A stretch of DNA of 58,088 nucleotides from contig JAFGFM010000064.1 of NCBI GenBank assembly GCA_016931115.1, positions 1-58,088 on the forward strand. The letters run 5' to 3'. Source of the stretch: Deltaproteobacteria bacterium. GTDB taxonomy: Bacteria > Desulfobacterota > DSM-4660 > Desulfatiglandales > HGW-15. A model generated the notes under the pieces. That model searched no databases. It was given only the letters and a program-made list of their open reading frames with translations, and was not told the origin of the DNA. Shown here in pieces: positions 16,332-25,883 of the stretch. The number at the start of each line of letters is the position of its first letter. The stretch's first letter is position 1. A program made the position numbers and the translations under genes.

Positions 16332-18170
16332 TTATCTTTCAATGGCAACAGCAAAATCGGCATTGTAATTTAATACCGCCCATGCGGTTTTTGTTTTTGG
16401 GTCAATCCCATAGGTGCCCAGACCATATTCAGGCCTGTATTTTCCTAAGATAAATTTCTTTTTGCCCCCGAAATTTTCATCTACCGCATTAACCCATTTT
16501 CCATTGGCAAAGGTTGCGATCCAGCTCTTGCCTTTTTTTATTGATTGGGTATTGCCTGCTTCAAAGGATATGGAAAGGACATAGATGTCTGTCCTGTTAT
16601 TCATCCCCAACTCAGACATCCCCCATATGGAAAAGATATCGCTTTTCAGTACATTATAATCAGGGGTTTTTACCCAGCCGGTCTCAACCGCCTTTGTAAG
16701 CCCACGTTTATTAGCATCAACAGATGCGCTGTTATTAAATCCATAAAGAATCCTGGTGTTTGTTTTACCATAGCTGTCACTTACAATATTATATGACTCC
16801 CCCTGCGCAACCAGAAAGCCCCTGCCATTAAGGCTGTATCCAAAACTCTCTTTTTTAACAAAATGGAACTCAGGTGCAACACCCTTTGGATATGCTTTAT
16901 TATTTTCACCGAATGGGAAGCTATTGCCTGACTGAAAATCGCCCCTTGAATCAGCATAATAATCTGCTGATAACCTGGGACCGTCTATCGTGTAGATATA
17001 ATATCCTATGTTATTTTCTTCCTGTGAAAGGGATATCTCACGGCTTTTTTGACCATACCATTGGTCAGGTATGGTAACATTACCCTGCCTGTCCTTTTTA
17101 GGGAAAGGGATAGAAGATGGTGAATAAAACTTGGTGCTCAATCCTGCGGCTATTATCTCCTGTATCTGTGAATTGCCATCCGGGCTTTTTACTATTGACC
17201 TGTGATGTATATGGTCATGCGCCCCCAGGTATAGTTTAACCCCGTTTTTATTCATGCTGTCATAAAAGGCGTTTTGACCTTCGGGATTATGGTCCATGCC
17301 ATATGATTCCTGCCCGAAAATGGTGTTCGGATTAAAGGGAGAATCCGTATGGTTCTGGCCCATTGGAGCGCGATGGGCTAAAACAATGGCATGGGTGGTA
17401 TTGCGTCCGGTTTTATTAAGTCTGTCTGTTATCCATTCCTGCTGTGAAGGTATGGGATAGTTAGTGCATGCCTTTGCCCAGTAAGGGTATTTAACCCCAT
17501 TCATTTCCCTCTCGGCTGTTTCGCATTTAATATCTTCTGTGTCCAGGATAACAAATCTGATATTACTCCCATCCGGGCCATAGTCAAAGGAATAGCTCAG
17601 ACCCTCAAGTTCATTGCTGTATTTCCCATCCAGTGTTACAGGGCTTGAAAGATTGGATATGCCGAACATCTCCTTTTGTGTCTGAGGAAAGCTTTCAAGC
17701 ATGGCCTTTATTTCGGCTTCAACAGGGGCATAATTAAAAAGCCATCCATATGTCTCATGGTTACCCCTTACCGGGAAGAGTCCAATACCTGCATCATATA
17801 AGGGTTTTGCAAATTCTGCCCTTGTTGCCATTGCACCTGTTTTGGCCCTGTCAGACAGGTCTCCAAGTGCAATGACAAGTTTGACGCCATGTTTAATGAA
17901 TTCATCATTTACCTGCCTGATCATTGCCCCTGATACAAAATTAGGGTTTGAGGCATCCTCTTCAATTGTCCACTGTGTATCCCCATGCACACCAAATGAC
18001 CATGCATCTGTTGACTGGTATCGACCTCCGCCTTCAGCCAGAGCAAAAGTCGATATATAAAAGAGCATAATAATACTGATAAGTGATGGCCTGGCCATTA
18101 TTTTTATTTTTGCCCTGATCCCAGTCGATTTATTTTCAGTATGATAAGTTTTAAAATTGTGAGATGTCAT
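16332..18170 (-). CDS. Secreted metallophosphoesterase, shorter paralogue
   Basis: A 612-residue calcineurin-like phosphoesterase exported through a signal peptide (hydrophobic residues 28-45, cut after FALA). The metal-site motifs are all present: GDTQ (D64; Q replaces the usual H), GDLSD (D104), GNHE (N137, H138), the histidine in LAHRAPMG and the pair in GAHDHIH. The C-terminal 110 residues (SDIFSIWGMSE to KTAWAVLNYNADFAVA) form a separate conserved block shared with the protein at 22812-25085 and not part of the phosphoesterase fold. The substrate is unknown. AAAGGG eight bases before ATG 18170 supports the start; M25 is an alternative. It lies 69 bases after the HflK-like gene, so it may be the last gene of that operon. 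Confidence 0.88.
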   Translation of the reverse strand: MTSHNFKTYHTENKSTGIRAKIKIMARPSLISIIMLFYISTFALAEGGGRYQSTDAWSFGVHGDTQWTIEEDASNPNFVSGAMIRQVNDEFIKHGVKLVIALGDLSDRAKTGAMATRAEFAKPLYDAGIGLFPVRGNHETYGWLFNYAPVEAEIKAMLESFPQTQKEMFGISNLSSPVTLDGKYSNELEGLSYSFDYGPDGSNIRFVILDTEDIKCETAEREMNGVKYPYWAKACTNYPIPSQQEWITDRLNKTGRNTTHAIVLAHRAPMGQNHTDSPFNPNTIFGQESYGMDHNPEGQNAFYDSMNKNGVKLYLGAHDHIHHRSIVKSPDGNSQIQEIIAAGLSTKFYSPSSIPFPKKDRQGNVTIPDQWYGQKSREISLSQEENNIGYYIYTIDGPRLSADYYADSRGDFQSGNSFPFGENNKAYPKGVAPEFHFVKKESFGYSLNGRGFLVAQGESYNIVSDSYGKTNTRILYGFNNSASVDANKRGLTKAVETGWVKTPDYNVLKSDIFSIWGMSELGMNNRTDIYVLSISFEAGNTQSIKKGKSWIATFANGKWVNAVDENFGGKKKFILGKYRPEYGLGTYGIDPKTKTAWAVLNYNADFAVAIER

Positions 18171-18239: not shown

Positions 18240-19211
18240 CTAATTAGAAATCAGCCTTAAATCAATAATGCGTTCTTCTCCGGAATTATTAACAAGTATT
18301 AACTTTTTGAGTGCCGGGTATTTCTGCTGAATAAAGTCTAAATACATCCTCTGTCTAGTGATATTTTTTGCCTTACTGTATTCATTAAGCTGCTGTTTGA
18401 AACGGTCCACCTCACCCTGTGCACGGCTTACAACTTCATACTTATACCCCATGGCCTCTTCTTCTATTTGCATGACCATGCCTTTGGTTTTTGGGAGATT
18501 TTCGTTTCTATATGACTCGGCATTATTTATCAGTTCTCTTTTCTGGATCTGCGCATTGATTACACGTTCAAAAAAGGTCCTTACCTCCTTATATGGAGAT
18601 ACTTCTTTGATTTCAATGGCGCTGATACCCAGTCCGCTGTTAAGAAGGTCGAGTTTTTCCTGGGTTGCCATTTTCAAATAAACCTCAACACTCTTTTTCC
18701 CTACTGTAAGAATATCATCCACTGTTTTACCGGCTAAACTGTTTATAGCAGAAGAGCAGGCTATCTGCCTGAGATATTCCTCATTACTTTTAATGTGAAA
18801 CAGATATTTTACCGGATCAATAATATTGTATCTGACTAAAAAATCTATAAAAACAATGTTATTATCACCTGTAATACAATAAGATGAAAGGCCTGTAGCC
18901 TTCCTGAATTCATTTTCTTTTGTGTCTGCCGCCACAAGAGAGAAGTCTTTTATCTCTATGGTATGGGTTGTTTTTACAGGCACCTTGGTGACCGTATCAA
19001 CGGGCCAGGGGAGCCTGTAATGTCCGCCAGGTTCAACCTTTCCATCTATTACCTTGCCAAACCTCTGGACTACCCCGAGTTCACTCTCTGATATCTTGTA
19101 AAACCCTGACAGAAGGTAAACAGCGCATAGCCCGGACACAATAACCAGTAAAAAATATCTAATTGAAGACCTTGTAGTTTCTTGCAGGTGATGTCTGATA
19201 GTCTTAGTCAT
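18240..19211 (-). CDS. HflK-like SPFH/band 7 membrane protein
   Basis: A 323-residue protein with an N-terminal transmembrane helix (about residues 20-38). The SPFH domain begins SELGVVQRFGKVIDGKVEPGGHYRLPWPVD in sequence, then has the typical DFLVRYNIIDP and GLGISAIEIKEVSPYKEV segments and a long coiled coil (about 225-290). In E. coli HflK and HflC form a cage round the FtsH protease. This protein is closer to HflK by its GDNN segment and its order next to an HflC. The operon has two HflK-like members and one HflC, an uncommon count. Six bases separate it from the HflC gene. Confidence 0.85.
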   Translation of the reverse strand: MTKTIRHHLQETTRSSIRYFLLVIVSGLCAVYLLSGFYKISESELGVVQRFGKVIDGKVEPGGHYRLPWPVDTVTKVPVKTTHTIEIKDFSLVAADTKENEFRKATGLSSYCITGDNNIVFIDFLVRYNIIDPVKYLFHIKSNEEYLRQIACSSAINSLAGKTVDDILTVGKKSVEVYLKMATQEKLDLLNSGLGISAIEIKEVSPYKEVRTFFERVINAQIQKRELINNAESYRNENLPKTKGMVMQIEEEAMGYKYEVVSRAQGEVDRFKQQLNEYSKAKNITRQRMYLDFIQQKYPALKKLILVNNSGEERIIDLRLISN

Positions 19212-19217
19212 TTCTTT

Positions 19218-20105
19218 CTACTTTTTACCACCGGTTAATTCTTTTGAATTCAGGTATTCAAACAGTTCGGAATCCGTTGACAATACAAGTGTCGTATTTT
19301 TATCCATAATCTGTGAATATACCTGAAGTGATTTTACAAATTTGAAGAATTCAGGGTCTTCGCTGTATGCCTCGGCATATATCCTTAATGCCTCTTTGTC
19401 ACCTTCACCCTTTATTTCTTCTGACTCCTTATACGCCTTTGCCAAAAGCTCCTTTACCTCTCTGTCAGTGGTAGCCCTGATTTTTGTAGCCTCTTCCTCT
19501 CCTTCAGCAGTATATTTAACCGCCTCTTTGGTTCTTTCAGCCTTCATCCGCTGATATACCGCATTACTTACAACAGAGGGGTATATAATCCTTTTAAGGC
19601 CAACCTGTACAATCTCTATGCCGTATTTTGACATGGTTCTTGTATTGGCTTCATTCTTAAGCCTTTCATATATCTCAGTAAGTTTAACATTTTCAGGTAC
19701 AGTATTAATTATCTTATCAATCTCGTAATCACTCACAATGATCCCCAGTTGCGAATTAACCATATCTCCCAGTTTTAATTTTGCATTCTCTACATTGTTG
19801 AGTGATTGAAAAAACAGTTCAGAATTGTCAAGTTTCCAGGCAATATAACATGTAACAATAACAGGGTTCTTGTCTTTTAATAAAAGCTGTAATGTCTGTG
19901 CCTCATAACAGTTTATCTTACTGTCAAAGGTGTTGATCTTCTGCCAGGGCATTTTTGTGTATAGACCGGCCTCTTCTATTGTCTTAATAGGCCTTCCCCA
20001 CTGGGTTATTATTACATTTGTGCCCTGCTTAACAGTAAACAGTGAGTTGTATGATACTATACAAACAACGATTATTAATAAAAGTATCGGGAATATTTTT
20101 TTCAT
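19218..20105 (-). CDS. HflC-like SPFH/band 7 membrane protein
   Basis: A 295-residue protein with one N-terminal helix (4-22) and an HflC-type SPFH domain: GTNVIITQWGRPI, GLYTKMPWQKINTFD, then GIEIVQVGLKRIIYP and the coiled-coil region AERTKEAVKYTAEGEEEATKI. The EDPEFFKFVKSLQVY segment near the C-terminus is typical of HflC. HflC anchors in the inner membrane and, with HflK, modulates FtsH. It lies between the CDF-SPFH fusion gene (15 bases) and the second HflK-like gene (6 bases), so the three are almost surely cotranscribed and may co-assemble. Confidence 0.9.
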   Translation of the reverse strand: MKKIFPILLLIIVVCIVSYNSLFTVKQGTNVIITQWGRPIKTIEEAGLYTKMPWQKINTFDSKINCYEAQTLQLLLKDKNPVIVTCYIAWKLDNSELFFQSLNNVENAKLKLGDMVNSQLGIIVSDYEIDKIINTVPENVKLTEIYERLKNEANTRTMSKYGIEIVQVGLKRIIYPSVVSNAVYQRMKAERTKEAVKYTAEGEEEATKIRATTDREVKELLAKAYKESEEIKGEGDKEALRIYAEAYSEDPEFFKFVKSLQVYSQIMDKNTTLVLSTDSELFEYLNSKELTGGKK

Positions 20106-20120
20106 GCCTTAATAACCTCT

Positions 20121-21881
20121 TTATTCTTCTGTCTGCCAATCCTCAATGGATGAGATTTCACCTGATTTTAAGTAAAGATTCGGTTTTCCTGTTCTGGGGT
20201 CTATGATTAATTTATCATTTTTACTGAGGGCATCAGCTATATGATTATAATACAATACTTTTCTTATTATTGATCTGGCCTTTTTATAGGATTCCAGTTT
20301 GGATCTATAACCGGTTACAGCCCCCTGGGATTTCAATATCTCTTCATTTACATATGCCTTTGCATCGCTGATGTTGCTATATGCTGTGCCGCGTGATGAT
20401 GGTATCTCCGAGTTCTGATATTCCAGGGCCAGATTGATCGTCTCTTCTTTTATCTGATAGGCTGCGATGACCTCTTCAAAGGACTCGGAGATCTTTATCG
20501 GAGGATGAATATCCTTAACATTGACACTTACAACCTCAAGCCCGGTATTCATTTTATCAAGTTTTTTTTGCAACGTTTCTTCAATATCCTGGTCCATCTC
20601 TTTCCGGTATGTAATGGCAATCTGATAAAATGACTTGGTTGTAAAAACATCCTGTATTGTTTCATAGGCGATATCTTCTATCAATGCCTGTGGATTCGAT
20701 ATGTTGTAATAATAGTTATACAGGTTTTTAATCCTGTAATGAATAATTATATAGGGATTAAGAAAATTGTTATCGCCTGAAATAAAGTGAATCTCTTCGC
20801 CATGAGTCATGCCCCATATAAGGGGTTTTTGTTCTTCCCTGGAAATATTGCCCAAAAATAATTCCTGAAACTGTTTTGTTTTTTCTTTTTTTACCATGTC
20901 TATTGGCCGGGGAAATTTAAAGTGGAAACCGGGCTGCAAGGCTTCATTCGTCACTGGTTTTCCAAAACGTTCAATTATAGCTTCCTCATTCATCTGCACC
21001 TGAAAGCCCATGTCATACAAAATGGTAAATAAGACCAGTGCAATCAGCACATAACCTGAAAATTTTAAAAGCCTGACCGATTGAATAACCAGTCTTGTTT
21101 TCAAGATATCAATACTGTACCTGTTATCTATCCCCCTGATGAACTTAAGATATATCTCCTTTTCAAGTACAGTGTTCAGAATTTCAAGAAACCTGTACTG
21201 CATCCTGAATTCTTTATTTTTGTTATAGAAATGTATAATGATATTAATGATTATCTCTATACCGAATGACAGTATCATGAGTGCAATGGCAAGACTGACC
21301 CATTTATCTATGTTGAATCTGAAATAATAAAGTATAAGAGACACCCCGGTTAAAGAGGAGCAGACCATATCCCCTTTTGAGTGCAGGCCATCTGATATCA
21401 ATGCAGCCGAGTTTTCAGATTTACCGACCTCTGAAAGGAATTTGAACAGAAAATATGAGCCGAGAGATAGGATCAGGAAAATAATACCTGTTAATAATGG
21501 CTTCTGTATTAAAATGGCTTTGGTAGTAAACACCTTAATGATAAGAGTTGCAGAGATAGAGATGAGGACGATACCAATTATTATGGAGGTTGTTACCTCA
21601 ATATTCTCACCGAATATATTTTTTAGAAATCTCTTTAGTTTATTTTTACCAGGGTCATCTGGTGTTTCATACTCAGGTTGAGCCTGCTTTTGCCTTAATA
21701 CAGAGGCGCTTCGCCACAGGGCAAAAAGAACCAGAACAGAGGTTGATATATCACTGAAACTGTGCCATGCCTCGGAAAGTACCGCTATACTGCCTGAGAG
21801 GTAATAGAATATGAACTTCAGGATTGTCAGACTGAGGGTAATTGATATTGCTATAAGTGATGTCCTGATCTTTTTGTTCAT
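20121..21881 (-). CDS. Cation-diffusion-facilitator / HflK-type SPFH fusion protein
   Basis: A 586-residue fusion. Residues 1-230 look like the six-helix membrane domain of a CDF metal transporter: both HxxxD metal-site motifs are present, SEAWHSFSD (H40, D44) in helix 2 and SDGLHSKGD (H167, D171) in helix 5. The usual cytosolic C-terminal dimer domain of CDF proteins is missing. It is replaced by a seventh helix (about 276-292) and an SPFH domain (NEEAIIERFGKPV to GLEVVSVNVKDIHPP) with a coiled-coil tail, as in HflK. The reading frame is continuous, so this is a true fusion and not two adjacent genes. The likely role is metal transport coupled to an SPFH scaffold; which metal is unknown. AGGGC precedes the start. 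Confidence 0.88.
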   Translation of the reverse strand: MNKKIRTSLIAISITLSLTILKFIFYYLSGSIAVLSEAWHSFSDISTSVLVLFALWRSASVLRQKQAQPEYETPDDPGKNKLKRFLKNIFGENIEVTTSIIIGIVLISISATLIIKVFTTKAILIQKPLLTGIIFLILSLGSYFLFKFLSEVGKSENSAALISDGLHSKGDMVCSSLTGVSLILYYFRFNIDKWVSLAIALMILSFGIEIIINIIIHFYNKNKEFRMQYRFLEILNTVLEKEIYLKFIRGIDNRYSIDILKTRLVIQSVRLLKFSGYVLIALVLFTILYDMGFQVQMNEEAIIERFGKPVTNEALQPGFHFKFPRPIDMVKKEKTKQFQELFLGNISREEQKPLIWGMTHGEEIHFISGDNNFLNPYIIIHYRIKNLYNYYYNISNPQALIEDIAYETIQDVFTTKSFYQIAITYRKEMDQDIEETLQKKLDKMNTGLEVVSVNVKDIHPPIKISESFEEVIAAYQIKEETINLALEYQNSEIPSSRGTAYSNISDAKAYVNEEILKSQGAVTGYRSKLESYKKARSIIRKVLYYNHIADALSKNDKLIIDPRTGKPNLYLKSGEISSIEDWQTEE

Positions 21882-21937: not shown

Positions 21938-22675
21938 TTAAAGGTTTTCTCCCTGCTGTTTATAATCCTTTTCTATTTTCAAGAAAAGGTCTTCCCTGAT
22001 TACCTCAATATTTGGACCCTGAATAAACATGCGATATAGGCGATTGTCCTGATCCACCCAGAGAAGTATATTTATCTCATTATCAACCTCAATTTCATAA
22101 TTTTTTATTTTCAATTCTTTATTATCATGGTCGGGGAGTATGGTATTCGAAGGAGTAACCATGATCTTGACGATAGAGGCTGAAGGGAAGAGATAGGTCT
22201 GAATATTCTGATCTCCTCTCTTTTTTTCATCATATTTGCGGATCCAGTAATCAATAGTGTGATAGGAAGTTAAACTGAGCATAGGCATACCCGGATCAAA
22301 AGGTATCTGTTTTACCTCTGATTCTTCCTGGGTTTTATTTGTATTTATGATTTTTCCATCCTCCACTTTAATTTCATATGATGAGTCAGTGTCGGAATCA
22401 TAGGCATAGGAGGAGGGGAATAATTGACCTTTTGGGATTACCATTTTTGTCTTGATTATTCTTTGCTTTTTATCCTTTGCATTTGGCCCGCTATCAAGTG
22501 CCTGCTCAGCGATACATGTCCGGTTACCATTTCTATCGGTTTTTTCATTAACAACCTCTGTGCCTATTTTTTTCCTGTTCATTACTATTATATAGGTCTG
22601 AGAATAGTCCTGCGGGCTACCGCATGAAGCCAAAAATAAAAGGATAAAAATCAGGATAAATTTTCTAATCATCAT
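21938..22675 (-). CDS. Putative lipoprotein, unknown function
   Basis: A 245-residue protein with a lipoprotein signal: hydrophobic residues 5-15 followed by the lipobox LASC (C18). The mature part is rich in beta-prone, charged segments such as YIIVMNRKKIGTEVV and MVIPKGQLFPSSYAYDSD, reminiscent of periplasmic or outer-membrane lipoproteins of the DUF3108/DUF6134 sort; I am not certain of any family. A second ATG three bases downstream has better spacing from GGAG. It is the first gene of the SPFH operon, 56 bases before the CDF-SPFH gene. Confidence 0.7.
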   Translation of the reverse strand: MMIRKFILIFILLFLASCGSPQDYSQTYIIVMNRKKIGTEVVNEKTDRNGNRTCIAEQALDSGPNAKDKKQRIIKTKMVIPKGQLFPSSYAYDSDTDSSYEIKVEDGKIINTNKTQEESEVKQIPFDPGMPMLSLTSYHTIDYWIRKYDEKKRGDQNIQTYLFPSASIVKIMVTPSNTILPDHDNKELKIKNYEIEVDNEINILLWVDQDNRLYRMFIQGPNIEVIREDLFLKIEKDYKQQGENL

Positions 22676-22811: not shown

Positions 22812-25085
22812 TTACCTTTTAAACTGAACAGTATTTATTCCACCAGCTACAGCAAAGTCAGCATTGTAATTCAAAACCGCCCAGGCTGTCTTTGTTTTTG
22901 GATCAATACCATATGTACCAAGACCATATTTAGATTTATATGGACCAAGTACAAACCTCTTTTTGCCACCAAAATTTTCATTGACGGCATTTTTCCATTT
23001 TCCATTTACATATGTCGCAATACCGATATTGCCGGCGCCAAGAAGAGTCATTCTATTAAAATCAAAGGTCATTGAAAGCACATAGTTATCTGTTTTATCT
23101 GCCTCTCCTATTTCTGACATGCCCCAGATTGAAAAAATATCACTCTTCAGGTCATTCTTAACTACATTTTTATACCATTTGTTCCAGAATTTATTCCAGG
23201 GATTTTTCCAGTAACGATTCCAGAAATGCTTCCTGTGGGGTGTACTCTTGTCATCCGGGTTTGCTATCCAGCCTGTATTTACCAGCTTGTTCAATGCACG
23301 GGGAGCACTTATAATGCCTTGTTTGTATACAGGCTTTCCATCATTATCAACAACAGGGTTCCCATCAGCATCTACTTCTTGTACATAGATCGGCTCCCCT
23401 TTTGAATCAAATAGAAGATTTCCATTATCATCAACAGCTTGTATCGAACCTGTTACAGTGGGAGTTTCATCTTTTGTTGAACTGTTGTTTGTCCCATCAA
23501 GGATTTTGGCAGCAGTACCTCCAAAACTGTCTTTTACGACTTTATAGGAACCATTCTGCGCTATCAGGAACTGCTTTCCGTTTGTGCTATACCCAAATGA
23601 TTCCTGCTTTACAAAGTCAAGATCAGGTAAATAAAGAGGATTATTCGCTTCTATAATTTCACCAGTTTCTTCATCTATGACATCCTGTCCGTGTGGATAG
23701 TCATCATTATCCTGAAAATCTCCGGTTGAATCCGCATAATAATCAACGTTTACACGTGGCCCGTCAATTGTGTAAATGTAGTAGCCGACATTATAAAGAT
23801 CCTGCGAAATCTGGGTCTCACGCTGCTTAGTGTAGCTGAAGCTATCCAGGCTCCCTGGCCCATAAAATTTTGTACTGCCTGCCATGTGAATAATCTGCTG
23901 TATTTGGTAATCCCCAGGTTTGCCCTTAATCAATTCATTATTTTCATCTAATGCAGGACTGGTAACAAGGGCGCGGTTATGGAGATGGTCATGACCAGAA
24001 AGCATATATCTTACACCATTATCAGCAAGGCTCTTGTAGAATGGAATCTGTGTTTGGGGTTTTGAAGCTGGGCTGCTGCCAAAAAAACCATCTGCATGAT
24101 TAGTTCCCATGAGACCTCTGTGAGACAAAACAAATGCATGCTCTGTACCACGGGTATTTATATCCAACTGAGCGCTTATCCACTCCTGCTGCATACCAGG
24201 CCAGAATTCAGTACCATTAATATCGTATTTCACTTTTGCAATAAAGGTTTCAAATGGGTAAGTTTTTTCATAACCATAAAAATTAGTCGAAGGTTTCGGT
24301 GAAGTACCTGAGGTGCTTATACGATAATATGCGCCCTCTTTGACTGAGCCACCAGGCACAGTTGCTGTAGCCTTATAAACAATCCAACCCAAATAATACC
24401 ATGCCTCACCATATTTTTCCGGATTGTAATCATCATCTATAGGTTCATCTTCAATTTTAGTCTCCTTAAAATATGTTGCCTCAACATCAACAATAACGAA
24501 CCGGGCATTGTTCCCTTCATCACCATAATCAAAAGAGTAGCTAAGTCCCTTCAGAAGATCATCAGTTGATGATGGCCAACTAAAATTTGTTGCACCAAAG
24601 GTATTTGAAAGATTCTGGGTCTGGGGGAATGCGGCTTTATAGCCAGGAATATTCACAACATACTCAGTATCTCGGCCATAAAGATAACCATAGGTTTCAT
24701 GGTTACCGCGCAGGGGGAAAAACCCTATTCCAGCATCAAACAATGGCTGTGCGGCTGCTGCGCGGGCTGCCATACCATCATCACCAGCTCTGTCAGTCAG
24801 GTCACCAACCTGAATTACAAACTTTACACCATTATCAATAAACTCATCTTCGATTGCCCTGGCAAGGGCTGCGCTAACGTATTCCGGGTTTGCTCCTTCC
24901 GGATCTTCACTGTTTGTCCATTGAGTATCTGCCATTACACCAAATGACCATGGATCCACCTCATATCTACCACCGCCAGCGGCAAATATAAGTGATGAGA
25001 AAACCAGTGACAGGATCGTGGTCATCATCATAGTCCTGGCAAGGATTCCCCATTTGTTATTGTTTTTATAAACCTGTTTTGACAT
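22812..25085 (-). CDS. Secreted metallophosphoesterase, larger paralogue
   Basis: A 757-residue exported calcineurin-like phosphoesterase. I start it at ATG 25085 (MSKQVYKNN), which has GAGGAGG upstream; an earlier GTG at 25142 lacks one. A signal peptide ends near FAAGGGRY. Motifs: ADTQ, GDLTD, GNHE, LSHRGLMG and GHDHLH, matching the 612-residue paralogue and again with Q in place of the first H. Compared with that paralogue it has three insertions: one of about 60 residues after the third motif, a pair of 20-residue aspartate/glycine repeats (DNA 23319-23438), and a tryptophan/lysine-rich tract coded by a 12-base tandem repeat (23182-23229). The last 110 residues match the paralogue closely. 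Substrate unknown. Confidence 0.88.
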   Translation of the reverse strand: MSKQVYKNNNKWGILARTMMMTTILSLVFSSLIFAAGGGRYEVDPWSFGVMADTQWTNSEDPEGANPEYVSAALARAIEDEFIDNGVKFVIQVGDLTDRAGDDGMAARAAAAQPLFDAGIGFFPLRGNHETYGYLYGRDTEYVVNIPGYKAAFPQTQNLSNTFGATNFSWPSSTDDLLKGLSYSFDYGDEGNNARFVIVDVEATYFKETKIEDEPIDDDYNPEKYGEAWYYLGWIVYKATATVPGGSVKEGAYYRISTSGTSPKPSTNFYGYEKTYPFETFIAKVKYDINGTEFWPGMQQEWISAQLDINTRGTEHAFVLSHRGLMGTNHADGFFGSSPASKPQTQIPFYKSLADNGVRYMLSGHDHLHNRALVTSPALDENNELIKGKPGDYQIQQIIHMAGSTKFYGPGSLDSFSYTKQRETQISQDLYNVGYYIYTIDGPRVNVDYYADSTGDFQDNDDYPHGQDVIDEETGEIIEANNPLYLPDLDFVKQESFGYSTNGKQFLIAQNGSYKVVKDSFGGTAAKILDGTNNSSTKDETPTVTGSIQAVDDNGNLLFDSKGEPIYVQEVDADGNPVVDNDGKPVYKQGIISAPRALNKLVNTGWIANPDDKSTPHRKHFWNRYWKNPWNKFWNKWYKNVVKNDLKSDIFSIWGMSEIGEADKTDNYVLSMTFDFNRMTLLGAGNIGIATYVNGKWKNAVNENFGGKKRFVLGPYKSKYGLGTYGIDPKTKTAWAVLNYNADFAVAGGINTVQFKR
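23182..23229. repeat. 12-bp tandem repeat inside the phosphoesterase gene
   Basis: Four contiguous 12-base units, each beginning TTCCAG, lie in frame. On the minus strand they encode four-residue steps HFWN-RYWK-NPWN-KFWN, placing a tryptophan every fourth residue. The phosphoesterase paralogue at 16332-18170 lacks this tract. Confidence 0.85.
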
Positions 25086-25883
25086 ACTATCCCTCCTCTT
25101 AAATTGGTTTTTTTGTAATTCTACACTTGTTAATGGAATCACACCGGTCTGATTGCCAATCTACTGAATACCTCCACCTCCTTATTTATTATTTCAGCCC
25201 GTATCTTCCATCCCTGTAAGATATTTTTCCTCATTATGTGATCCCGCCTATCCATAACCCATACATACAATCGCCAAAGCTTAAACTACATTGCTTATTT
25301 TTTTTAAGAGAAACAAAATAATTGCCTGCACGAAACATGCCCTGATGGTAACCCATTGATAATGTGGAATTTATTTAAATTTACAAGTGTGAAGTCTCAA
25401 TATTTTTTATCAATATATTGCGACTTGTTCAATATGTTGAGCGGCCGGGAATGTGGGAATGATAACTTATTATCAATCAATCCTTTTTTCGTTATAGAAA
25501 CTGGATTACCCGGTTCAGCCTTCTGGGGTAATGGGTTTGATACGCCGTTCCATCCTCCATAGCAGTAGCTACTGCAGGCGCCCATAGCCTATGGTGAGGC
25601 AGGGATCCGTCTCCACTGCTAGCGGCAACAAAATCTAAGGTGTCGGACCAGGAGGGTCACTAGAAAAATAACCTTGTTATTATTTGTAAAATCTATATCC
25701 ATCAATTTTTATATGCCTTTCATAAAAATCAGGATTATTTATGTTTGATTAGTAAAGATGAAACAGTTATTATCCTAATGTATCAAAATAAAAGAGCACA
25801 TAATAACCATATTAATTCCGGCTAATCTTTCGGTAAAATATAAACGAAAACATAGCGGGTATTAGCGGATCAATTTATAAGAT
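25086..25883. other. Long intergenic region
   Basis: Nearly 800 bases with no gene I can support. The left 350 bases must hold the phosphoesterase promoter and contain a second purine-rich AAGGAGGTGGAGG tract with no sensible start codon after it. The right 200 bases are AT-rich. In the middle is the GC-rich palindromic island given as a separate entry. Confidence 0.4.
25436..25665. other. Unexplained GC-rich island with nested palindromes
   Basis: About 230 bases are clearly richer in GC than their surroundings and full of self-complementary segments: a hairpin ATTACCC...GGGTAAT (25506-25533), a perfect 14-bp palindrome GCAGTAGCTACTGC (25562-25575), and CCATAG-C-CTATGG next to it (25582-25594). 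It matches no riboswitch, SRP RNA, 6S RNA or tRNA that I know. It may be a structured RNA or the remains of a mobile element. Short open frames on both strands here have no recognisable content. Confidence 0.45.

Follow-up and report, generated by a model that had tools for sequence, protein, structure and literature searches.

A CDF transporter domain fused to an HflK-type SPFH domain: a putative caged divalent-metal exporter in bacteria

A protein of 586 amino acids joins the six-helix membrane domain of a cation diffusion facilitator (CDF) to a seventh membrane helix and an SPFH domain of the HflK type. Its gene lies in a 58,088-nucleotide stretch of bacterial DNA that was analysed at full length and is termed the window here, and it is followed by genes for HflC and for a second HflK. 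The most likely function of the fusion is that of a caged divalent-metal exporter, distinct from a regulator of FtsH; we give a probability of roughly 0.6 to a divalent-metal exporter that forms part of an HflKC-like cage of its own.

The fusion gene and its domains

The 586-codon frame at 20121–21881 described in the initial annotation is real, and runs on the minus strand (21881→20121), which had not been given. The gene can be divided into the following parts:

20121..21881, minus strand: CDF–HflK fusion gene, 586 amino acids (open reading frame, Pfam, NCBIfam)
21225..21881, minus strand: CDF (Cation_efflux) transmembrane domain, residues 1–219, six helices (Pfam, AlphaFold2 model, Foldseek)
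21060..21224, minus strand: basic helical linker, residues 220–274, predicted cytosolic, in place of the CDF C-terminal domain and free of strands (charge, AlphaFold2 model)
21009..21059, minus strand: seventh membrane helix (TM7), residues 275–291, predicted to run in-to-out (hydropathy, charge, model)
20430..21002, minus strand: SPFH/Band_7 domain of HflK type, residues 294–484, predicted periplasmic (Pfam, NCBIfam, Foldseek)

Pfam recognises two domains and no others in the 586-residue protein: Cation_efflux (PF01545), matched in two stretches at 7.7e-16 (58.9 bits against a cut-off of 26.6), and Band_7 (PF01145), matched over residues 294–484 at 1.7e-22. The NCBIfam hflK model (TIGR01933) gives 3e-48 and, at 164.5 bits, passes its equivalog cut-off of 159.4, whereas the CDF model (TIGR01297) gives 1.1e-21 and, at 77.4 bits, falls slightly short of its cut-off of 82.35. 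Automatic annotation would therefore name the fusion ‘HflK’, implying control of FtsH.

The AlphaFold2 model, computed as a single chain from a 48-sequence alignment, has a mean pLDDT of 85 (a run with six sequences gave 60) and comprises six helices, a helical linker, TM7 and the SPFH domain. In Foldseek searches the C-terminal half of the model finds its closest folds in E. coli HflK structures (7vhq and 9cz2), while the CDF part matches YiiP (8f6k, E 5.6e-5). The layout originally read from the sequence, a six-helix CDF domain followed by a seventh helix and an HflK-type SPFH domain, is thus backed by Pfam, NCBIfam and the model. The initial annotation had proposed to look for the same two-domain order across genomes; Cation_efflux and Band_7 are matched together in 22 of 22 fusions. 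A chance arrangement or assembly chimera was rejected, the architecture being present in independent assemblies (22 full-length or near-full-length homologues, including the window's own, and five found later).

The metal site

The putative metal site, corresponding to site A of CDF exporters, is formed by two motifs:

21750..21764, minus strand: HxxxD motif of helix 2 (H40–D44), invariant in 22/22 fusions and kept by the five later members; aligns with FieF D45/D49
21369..21383, minus strand: HxxxD motif of helix 5 (H167–D171), invariant in 22/22 fusions and kept by the five later members; aligns with FieF H153/D157

The two motifs had been assigned to helices 2 and 5, and the model agrees: H40/D44 falls in predicted helix 2 (residues 32–67) and H167/D171 in helix 5 (residues 159–186). 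The absence of any CDF score and motifs outside these helices had been named as grounds for giving up the CDF reading; the domain does score as CDF, and both motifs lie where expected. The four residues align column for column with D45/D49/H153/D157 of E. coli FieF/YiiP, which constitute its site A (PMC4995437). H40, S41, D44, H167 and D171 are invariant across the 22 fusions of the alignment, from which the five later members were left out, and both motifs are kept in all 27. The site B residues of FieF, D68 and H75, are not conserved in the fusions.

A three-gene module

HflC and HflK, reported earlier as neighbours of the fusion, do adjoin it, with matches to TIGR01932 and TIGR01933 directly downstream:

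19218..20105, minus strand: HflC homologue, 295 amino acids, second gene of the module (TIGR01932, 3.1e-60; position kept in 22/22 loci)
18240..19211, minus strand: second HflK homologue, 323 amino acids, third gene of the module (TIGR01933, 6e-60; position kept in 22/22 loci)

The order fusion–HflC–second HflK holds in all 22 loci analysed, as against HflK–HflC in canonical loci; the fusion therefore stands where HflK normally would, and HflC is followed by an additional HflK. In a tree of 114 proteins, 18 modules of a main type group together (SH-aLRT 98 for the fusion, 99 for the second HflK and 87 for HflC), and the main-type fusions form one clade in the CDF tree (100/100). Since matching main-type groups are found in all three gene trees, the trio appears to travel together, whether inherited or transferred as a unit. 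A second type (type II) consists of four modules, namely the other copy in the window's genome and those of genomes G038, G040 and G329. All fusions stand apart from standalone CDF proteins in the CDF tree, with moderate support (85/64), and a single fusion origin is not rejected by the AU test (p-AU 0.128); one fusion event for all fusions is compatible with these tests, though not proven by them. Among standalone CDF proteins, the one that the tree places nearest the fused domains (L095, from G329) has 400 amino acids and an extra C-terminal domain that by eye resembles a dinitrogenase iron-molybdenum cofactor (NifX-like) domain.

Distribution

The fusion is rare (about 1–2% of sampled genomes per phylum) yet widespread, occurring in at least five phyla or lineages by depositor label: Thermodesulfobacteriota, Acidobacteria, Spirochaetales, Planctomycetota and Muiribacteriota. 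Within the window's own phylum (Thermodesulfobacteriota/Desulfobacterota), a full-length fusion is present in 9 of the 395 genomes sampled, and a wide gap separates fusions (E below 1e-168) from plain HflK (1e-86 and weaker). A scan of public genome contigs, based on an alignment of the closer fusion members, returned 16 loci, all with full-length or near-full-length fusions, labelled Thermodesulfobacteriota/Deltaproteobacteria, Planctomycetota, Acidobacteria, Spirochaetales or Muiribacteriota; several of the 16 belong to a single sampling series, Zod_Metabat. In wider draws, the counts of which take in the member genomes already known, fusion-bearing genomes numbered 2/296 for the phylum of the Spirochaetales members, 2/294 for that of the Planctomycetota members and 5/297 for that of the Acidobacteria members. 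No relative was found in the viral contigs searched; among the plasmids searched, matches span about half of the query and none covers 80%.

The window's genome encodes two fusions alongside a canonical HflK–HflC pair; standalone CDF proteins and FtsH are each encoded by two genes. Its second, distant CDF–HflK/HflC/HflK module (L007:3789-7298, on contig C21) has the helix-5 motif HTFSD, and its fusion is 27% identical to the first over residues 95–563. Copies resembling this module are found in G535 (L117) and G1315 (L124); an apparent ‘2 TAG’ inside L117 was dismissed, the frame being open for 589 codons. In genomes G129 (93% complete) and G286 (78% complete), the fusion is the sole Cation_efflux protein found.

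Neighbouring genes

The module is flanked in the window by three further genes:

21938..22675, minus strand: predicted lipoprotein without Pfam or NCBIfam match (homologues adjoin the module in G001, the sister genome, and in two Acidobacteria)
16332..18170, minus strand: exported metallophosphoesterase directly downstream of the module, loosely linked (Pfam Metallophos, 4.8e-9; also in L112)
22812..25142, minus strand: further exported metallophosphoesterase, on the upstream side of the lipoprotein gene, loosely linked (Pfam Metallophos, 1.5e-9; also in L112)

In the two depositor-labelled Acidobacteria (L077 and L081), the lipoprotein homologue lies downstream of the module on the opposite strand. 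The two metallophosphoesterases have the C-terminal stretch YGLGTYGIDPKTKTAWAVLNYNADFAV in common and stand on both flanks of the module, as they do in G001. The six window genes from 25142 down to 16332 all point the same way, no gap between them exceeding about 140 bases, and may therefore form one operon.

FeoB is encoded within about 6 kb of four loci of Thermodesulfobacteriota type, in genomes that have one or two FeoB each; among these loci, DUF1007 and NicO stand ahead of the module in two, a DtxR-type regulator is present in three, and FeoA in some. In a compact metal locus at L066:627-10800, genes for FeoB, FeoA and a DtxR-type regulator are divergent from DUF1007 and NicO genes and the fusion module, and the module is followed by a Memo-like gene. 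No metal-uptake or metal-regulator gene was seen directly beside the module in the window; metal-gene neighbours accompany a minority of fusion loci, and neither neighbour set is present everywhere. A search of 17 fusion loci at Rfam gathering thresholds found no metal riboswitch. As far as gene neighbourhood can tell, FeoB-type neighbours point to ferrous iron as a candidate substrate, and metallophosphoesterase neighbours to a possible loading of exported metalloenzymes.

The second of these pointers allows a narrower version of the best explanation, in which the caged CDF exporter would provide a metalation chamber that supplies exported metalloenzymes, metallophosphoesterases above all, with metal at their exit from the translocon. 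An exported metallophosphoesterase adjoins the module in six genomes of three lineages, with three enzyme types (window/G001; G040/G329; G061/G135), to be set against 6–16 such genes in each of these six genomes; MeeF and MeeY of Bacillus subtilis offer a precedent (PMC10550928). This version is possible but doubtful: the metallophosphoesterase family was picked post hoc, most loci have no such neighbour, and a direct link to the Sec machinery is missing.

Contact with FtsH

In the E. coli complex, HflK contacts FtsH via an arginine printed as Arg191 (PMC12048511). The nearby arginines of K-12 HflK are R185 and R193, and R193 is assumed here to be the published Arg191. Arginine occupies the R193 position in 25/25 canonical HflKs, against 0/18 main-type fusions and 0/18 of their partner HflKs, and in 3/4 type II fusions. 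The R185 position holds R or K in canonical HflK, whereas R is absent from it in 18/18 main-type fusions (one has K); the main type has also lost G197, which is invariant in canonical HflK. Main-type cages are therefore unlikely to hold FtsH in the known way. The canonical FtsH contact has probably been given up in the main type, while binding of FtsH by type II fusions is possible.

These residues bear on the idea of an FtsH adaptor, a variant HflKC–FtsH complex in which the CDF part would act as a gate, substrate or metal sensor of FtsH. FtsH is a zinc protease and is encoded in 9 of the 10 genomes tested, in two copies in the window's genome; the fusion is accepted by the hflK equivalog model, and most type II fusions keep the FtsH-side arginine. 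With this arginine gone from every main-type fusion and partner, and with canonical HflKC coexisting in the window's genome, we consider such an adaptor unlikely. The initial annotation had placed the transporter inside or alongside an HflKC-like ring of the kind that surrounds FtsH; a link to a cage is likely, but the ring round FtsH is weakened by the loss of FtsH-side residues in the main type.

Topology and the missing dimer domain

A cytosolic C-terminal dimer domain is usual, but not universal, in the CDF family; MmCDF3 is reportedly a CDF protein that lacks one. The Pfam dimer domain ZT_dimer has no match in any of the 22 fusions, all of which match both Cation_efflux and Band_7. The linker is modelled as helices only and is therefore not a disguised CDF C-terminal domain, which confirms the absence of this domain noted at the outset.

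Charges are distributed as the positive-inside rule predicts, with about 20 K+R per protein in the inside loops of the fusions and 0–3 in the outside loops. This pattern suggests a CDF amino end on the inside, a cytosolic linker after helix 6, and a helix 7 that runs in-to-out. With the CDF amino end inside and helix 7 adding one extra membrane crossing, the SPFH domain would therefore be periplasmic, the side that SPFH3 (HflK/C) proteins face (PMC2636767). The earlier view, in which SPFH took the very place of the dimer domain in the cytosol, is probably wrong as to where SPFH stands: TM7 and the charge rule put it in the periplasm, and the cytosolic piece is the basic helical linker of about 55 residues. 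From the opposite membrane face, SPFH could take over the oligomerising role of the dimer domain.

Simple replacement, with SPFH as a plain oligomerisation module of the transporter, would account for a dimer domain missing in 22/22 fusions, SPFH being an oligomerising fold; it is improbable in view of the extra helix and charge pattern that set SPFH on the other face, and of the conserved HflC and second HflK, which imply a hetero-cage and not a dimer. A CDF part that has lost transport and acts as membrane anchor or metal sensor of the cage would suit the absence of the cytosolic regulatory domain and of site B, but is highly doubtful, because none of the four residues of site A varies among 22 diverse members, five more keep them all, and an anchor needs less.

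Proposed function

For an exporter built into its own cage, metal would be bound by the CDF domain between helices 2 and 5, at the H-D-H-D site, and would be exported from the cytosol to the periplasm by proton antiport, as in CDF proteins. Helix 7 would lead into the HflK-type SPFH domain, which is proposed to co-assemble in the periplasm with the operon's HflC and second HflK. A ring or nautilus would be formed, with several CDF units held in the membrane patch inside, and cage oligomerisation would make up for the cytosolic dimer domain that the CDF part lacks. The cargo of a main-type cage would be the transporter, the canonical FtsH contact having probably been given up, and metal would be released inside or beside a semi-enclosed periplasmic chamber. 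Judging from the neighbours, ferrous iron would be the first candidate, with Zn, Mn, Ni or Co possible; the purpose may be efflux, perhaps with loading of exported metalloenzymes. A bolder and rather unlikely extension is a class of SPFH cages that have their cargo as a covalent part of the wall, in which built-in pumps would raise local periplasmic metal and load exported metalloenzymes independently of FtsH.

The roles of SPFH cages beyond FtsH are an open question; as a rule, cargo has been recognised by loose association only. With the cargo fused to the cage, one structure would reveal the placement of a transporter within an SPFH microdomain, and also how a CDF exporter works without the cytosolic dimer domain.

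Comparison with known systems

The initial annotation knew of no characterised protein with the CDF–HflK layout, and none was found in a literature search of open-licence papers. Full-text searching of these papers gave no title or abstract on a protein that combines SPFH, Band 7 or HflK with cation efflux or a cation diffusion facilitator, and the text of a survey of prokaryotic SPFH proteins makes no mention of cation or transporter.

CDF exporters of the FieF/YiiP type (PF01545) share with the fusion the six-helix domain and the HxxxD/HxxxD tetrad, which corresponds to FieF D45/D49/H153/D157. The fusion differs in having no cytosolic dimer domain, in its unconserved site B, and in the addition of TM7 and SPFH. 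HflK of the FtsH–HflK/C complex (TIGR01933; PDB 7vhq, 7wi3 and 9cz2) likewise has an in-to-out helix, after which come an SPFH domain in the periplasm and a long helix, and is encoded directly before HflC; in contrast to HflK and its single helix, the fusion has six helices in front (seven in total), a second HflK after HflC and, in the main type, neither R193 nor G197.

MeeF and MeeY of Bacillus subtilis, Mn exporters of the TerC family, are co-purified with FtsH, FloT and FloA and supply exoenzymes with metal (PMC10550928). The function proposed here is similar, in that metal export is linked with SPFH proteins, with FtsH and with the metalation of exoenzymes, but MeeF and MeeY belong to another transporter family, and what connects them with SPFH proteins is co-purification instead of fusion. 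Stomatin and channels provide a further parallel (PDB 9zd2, by its entry title aquaporin 1 bound to stomatin): here too an SPFH assembly holds a membrane transport protein, although the partners are separate eukaryotic proteins.
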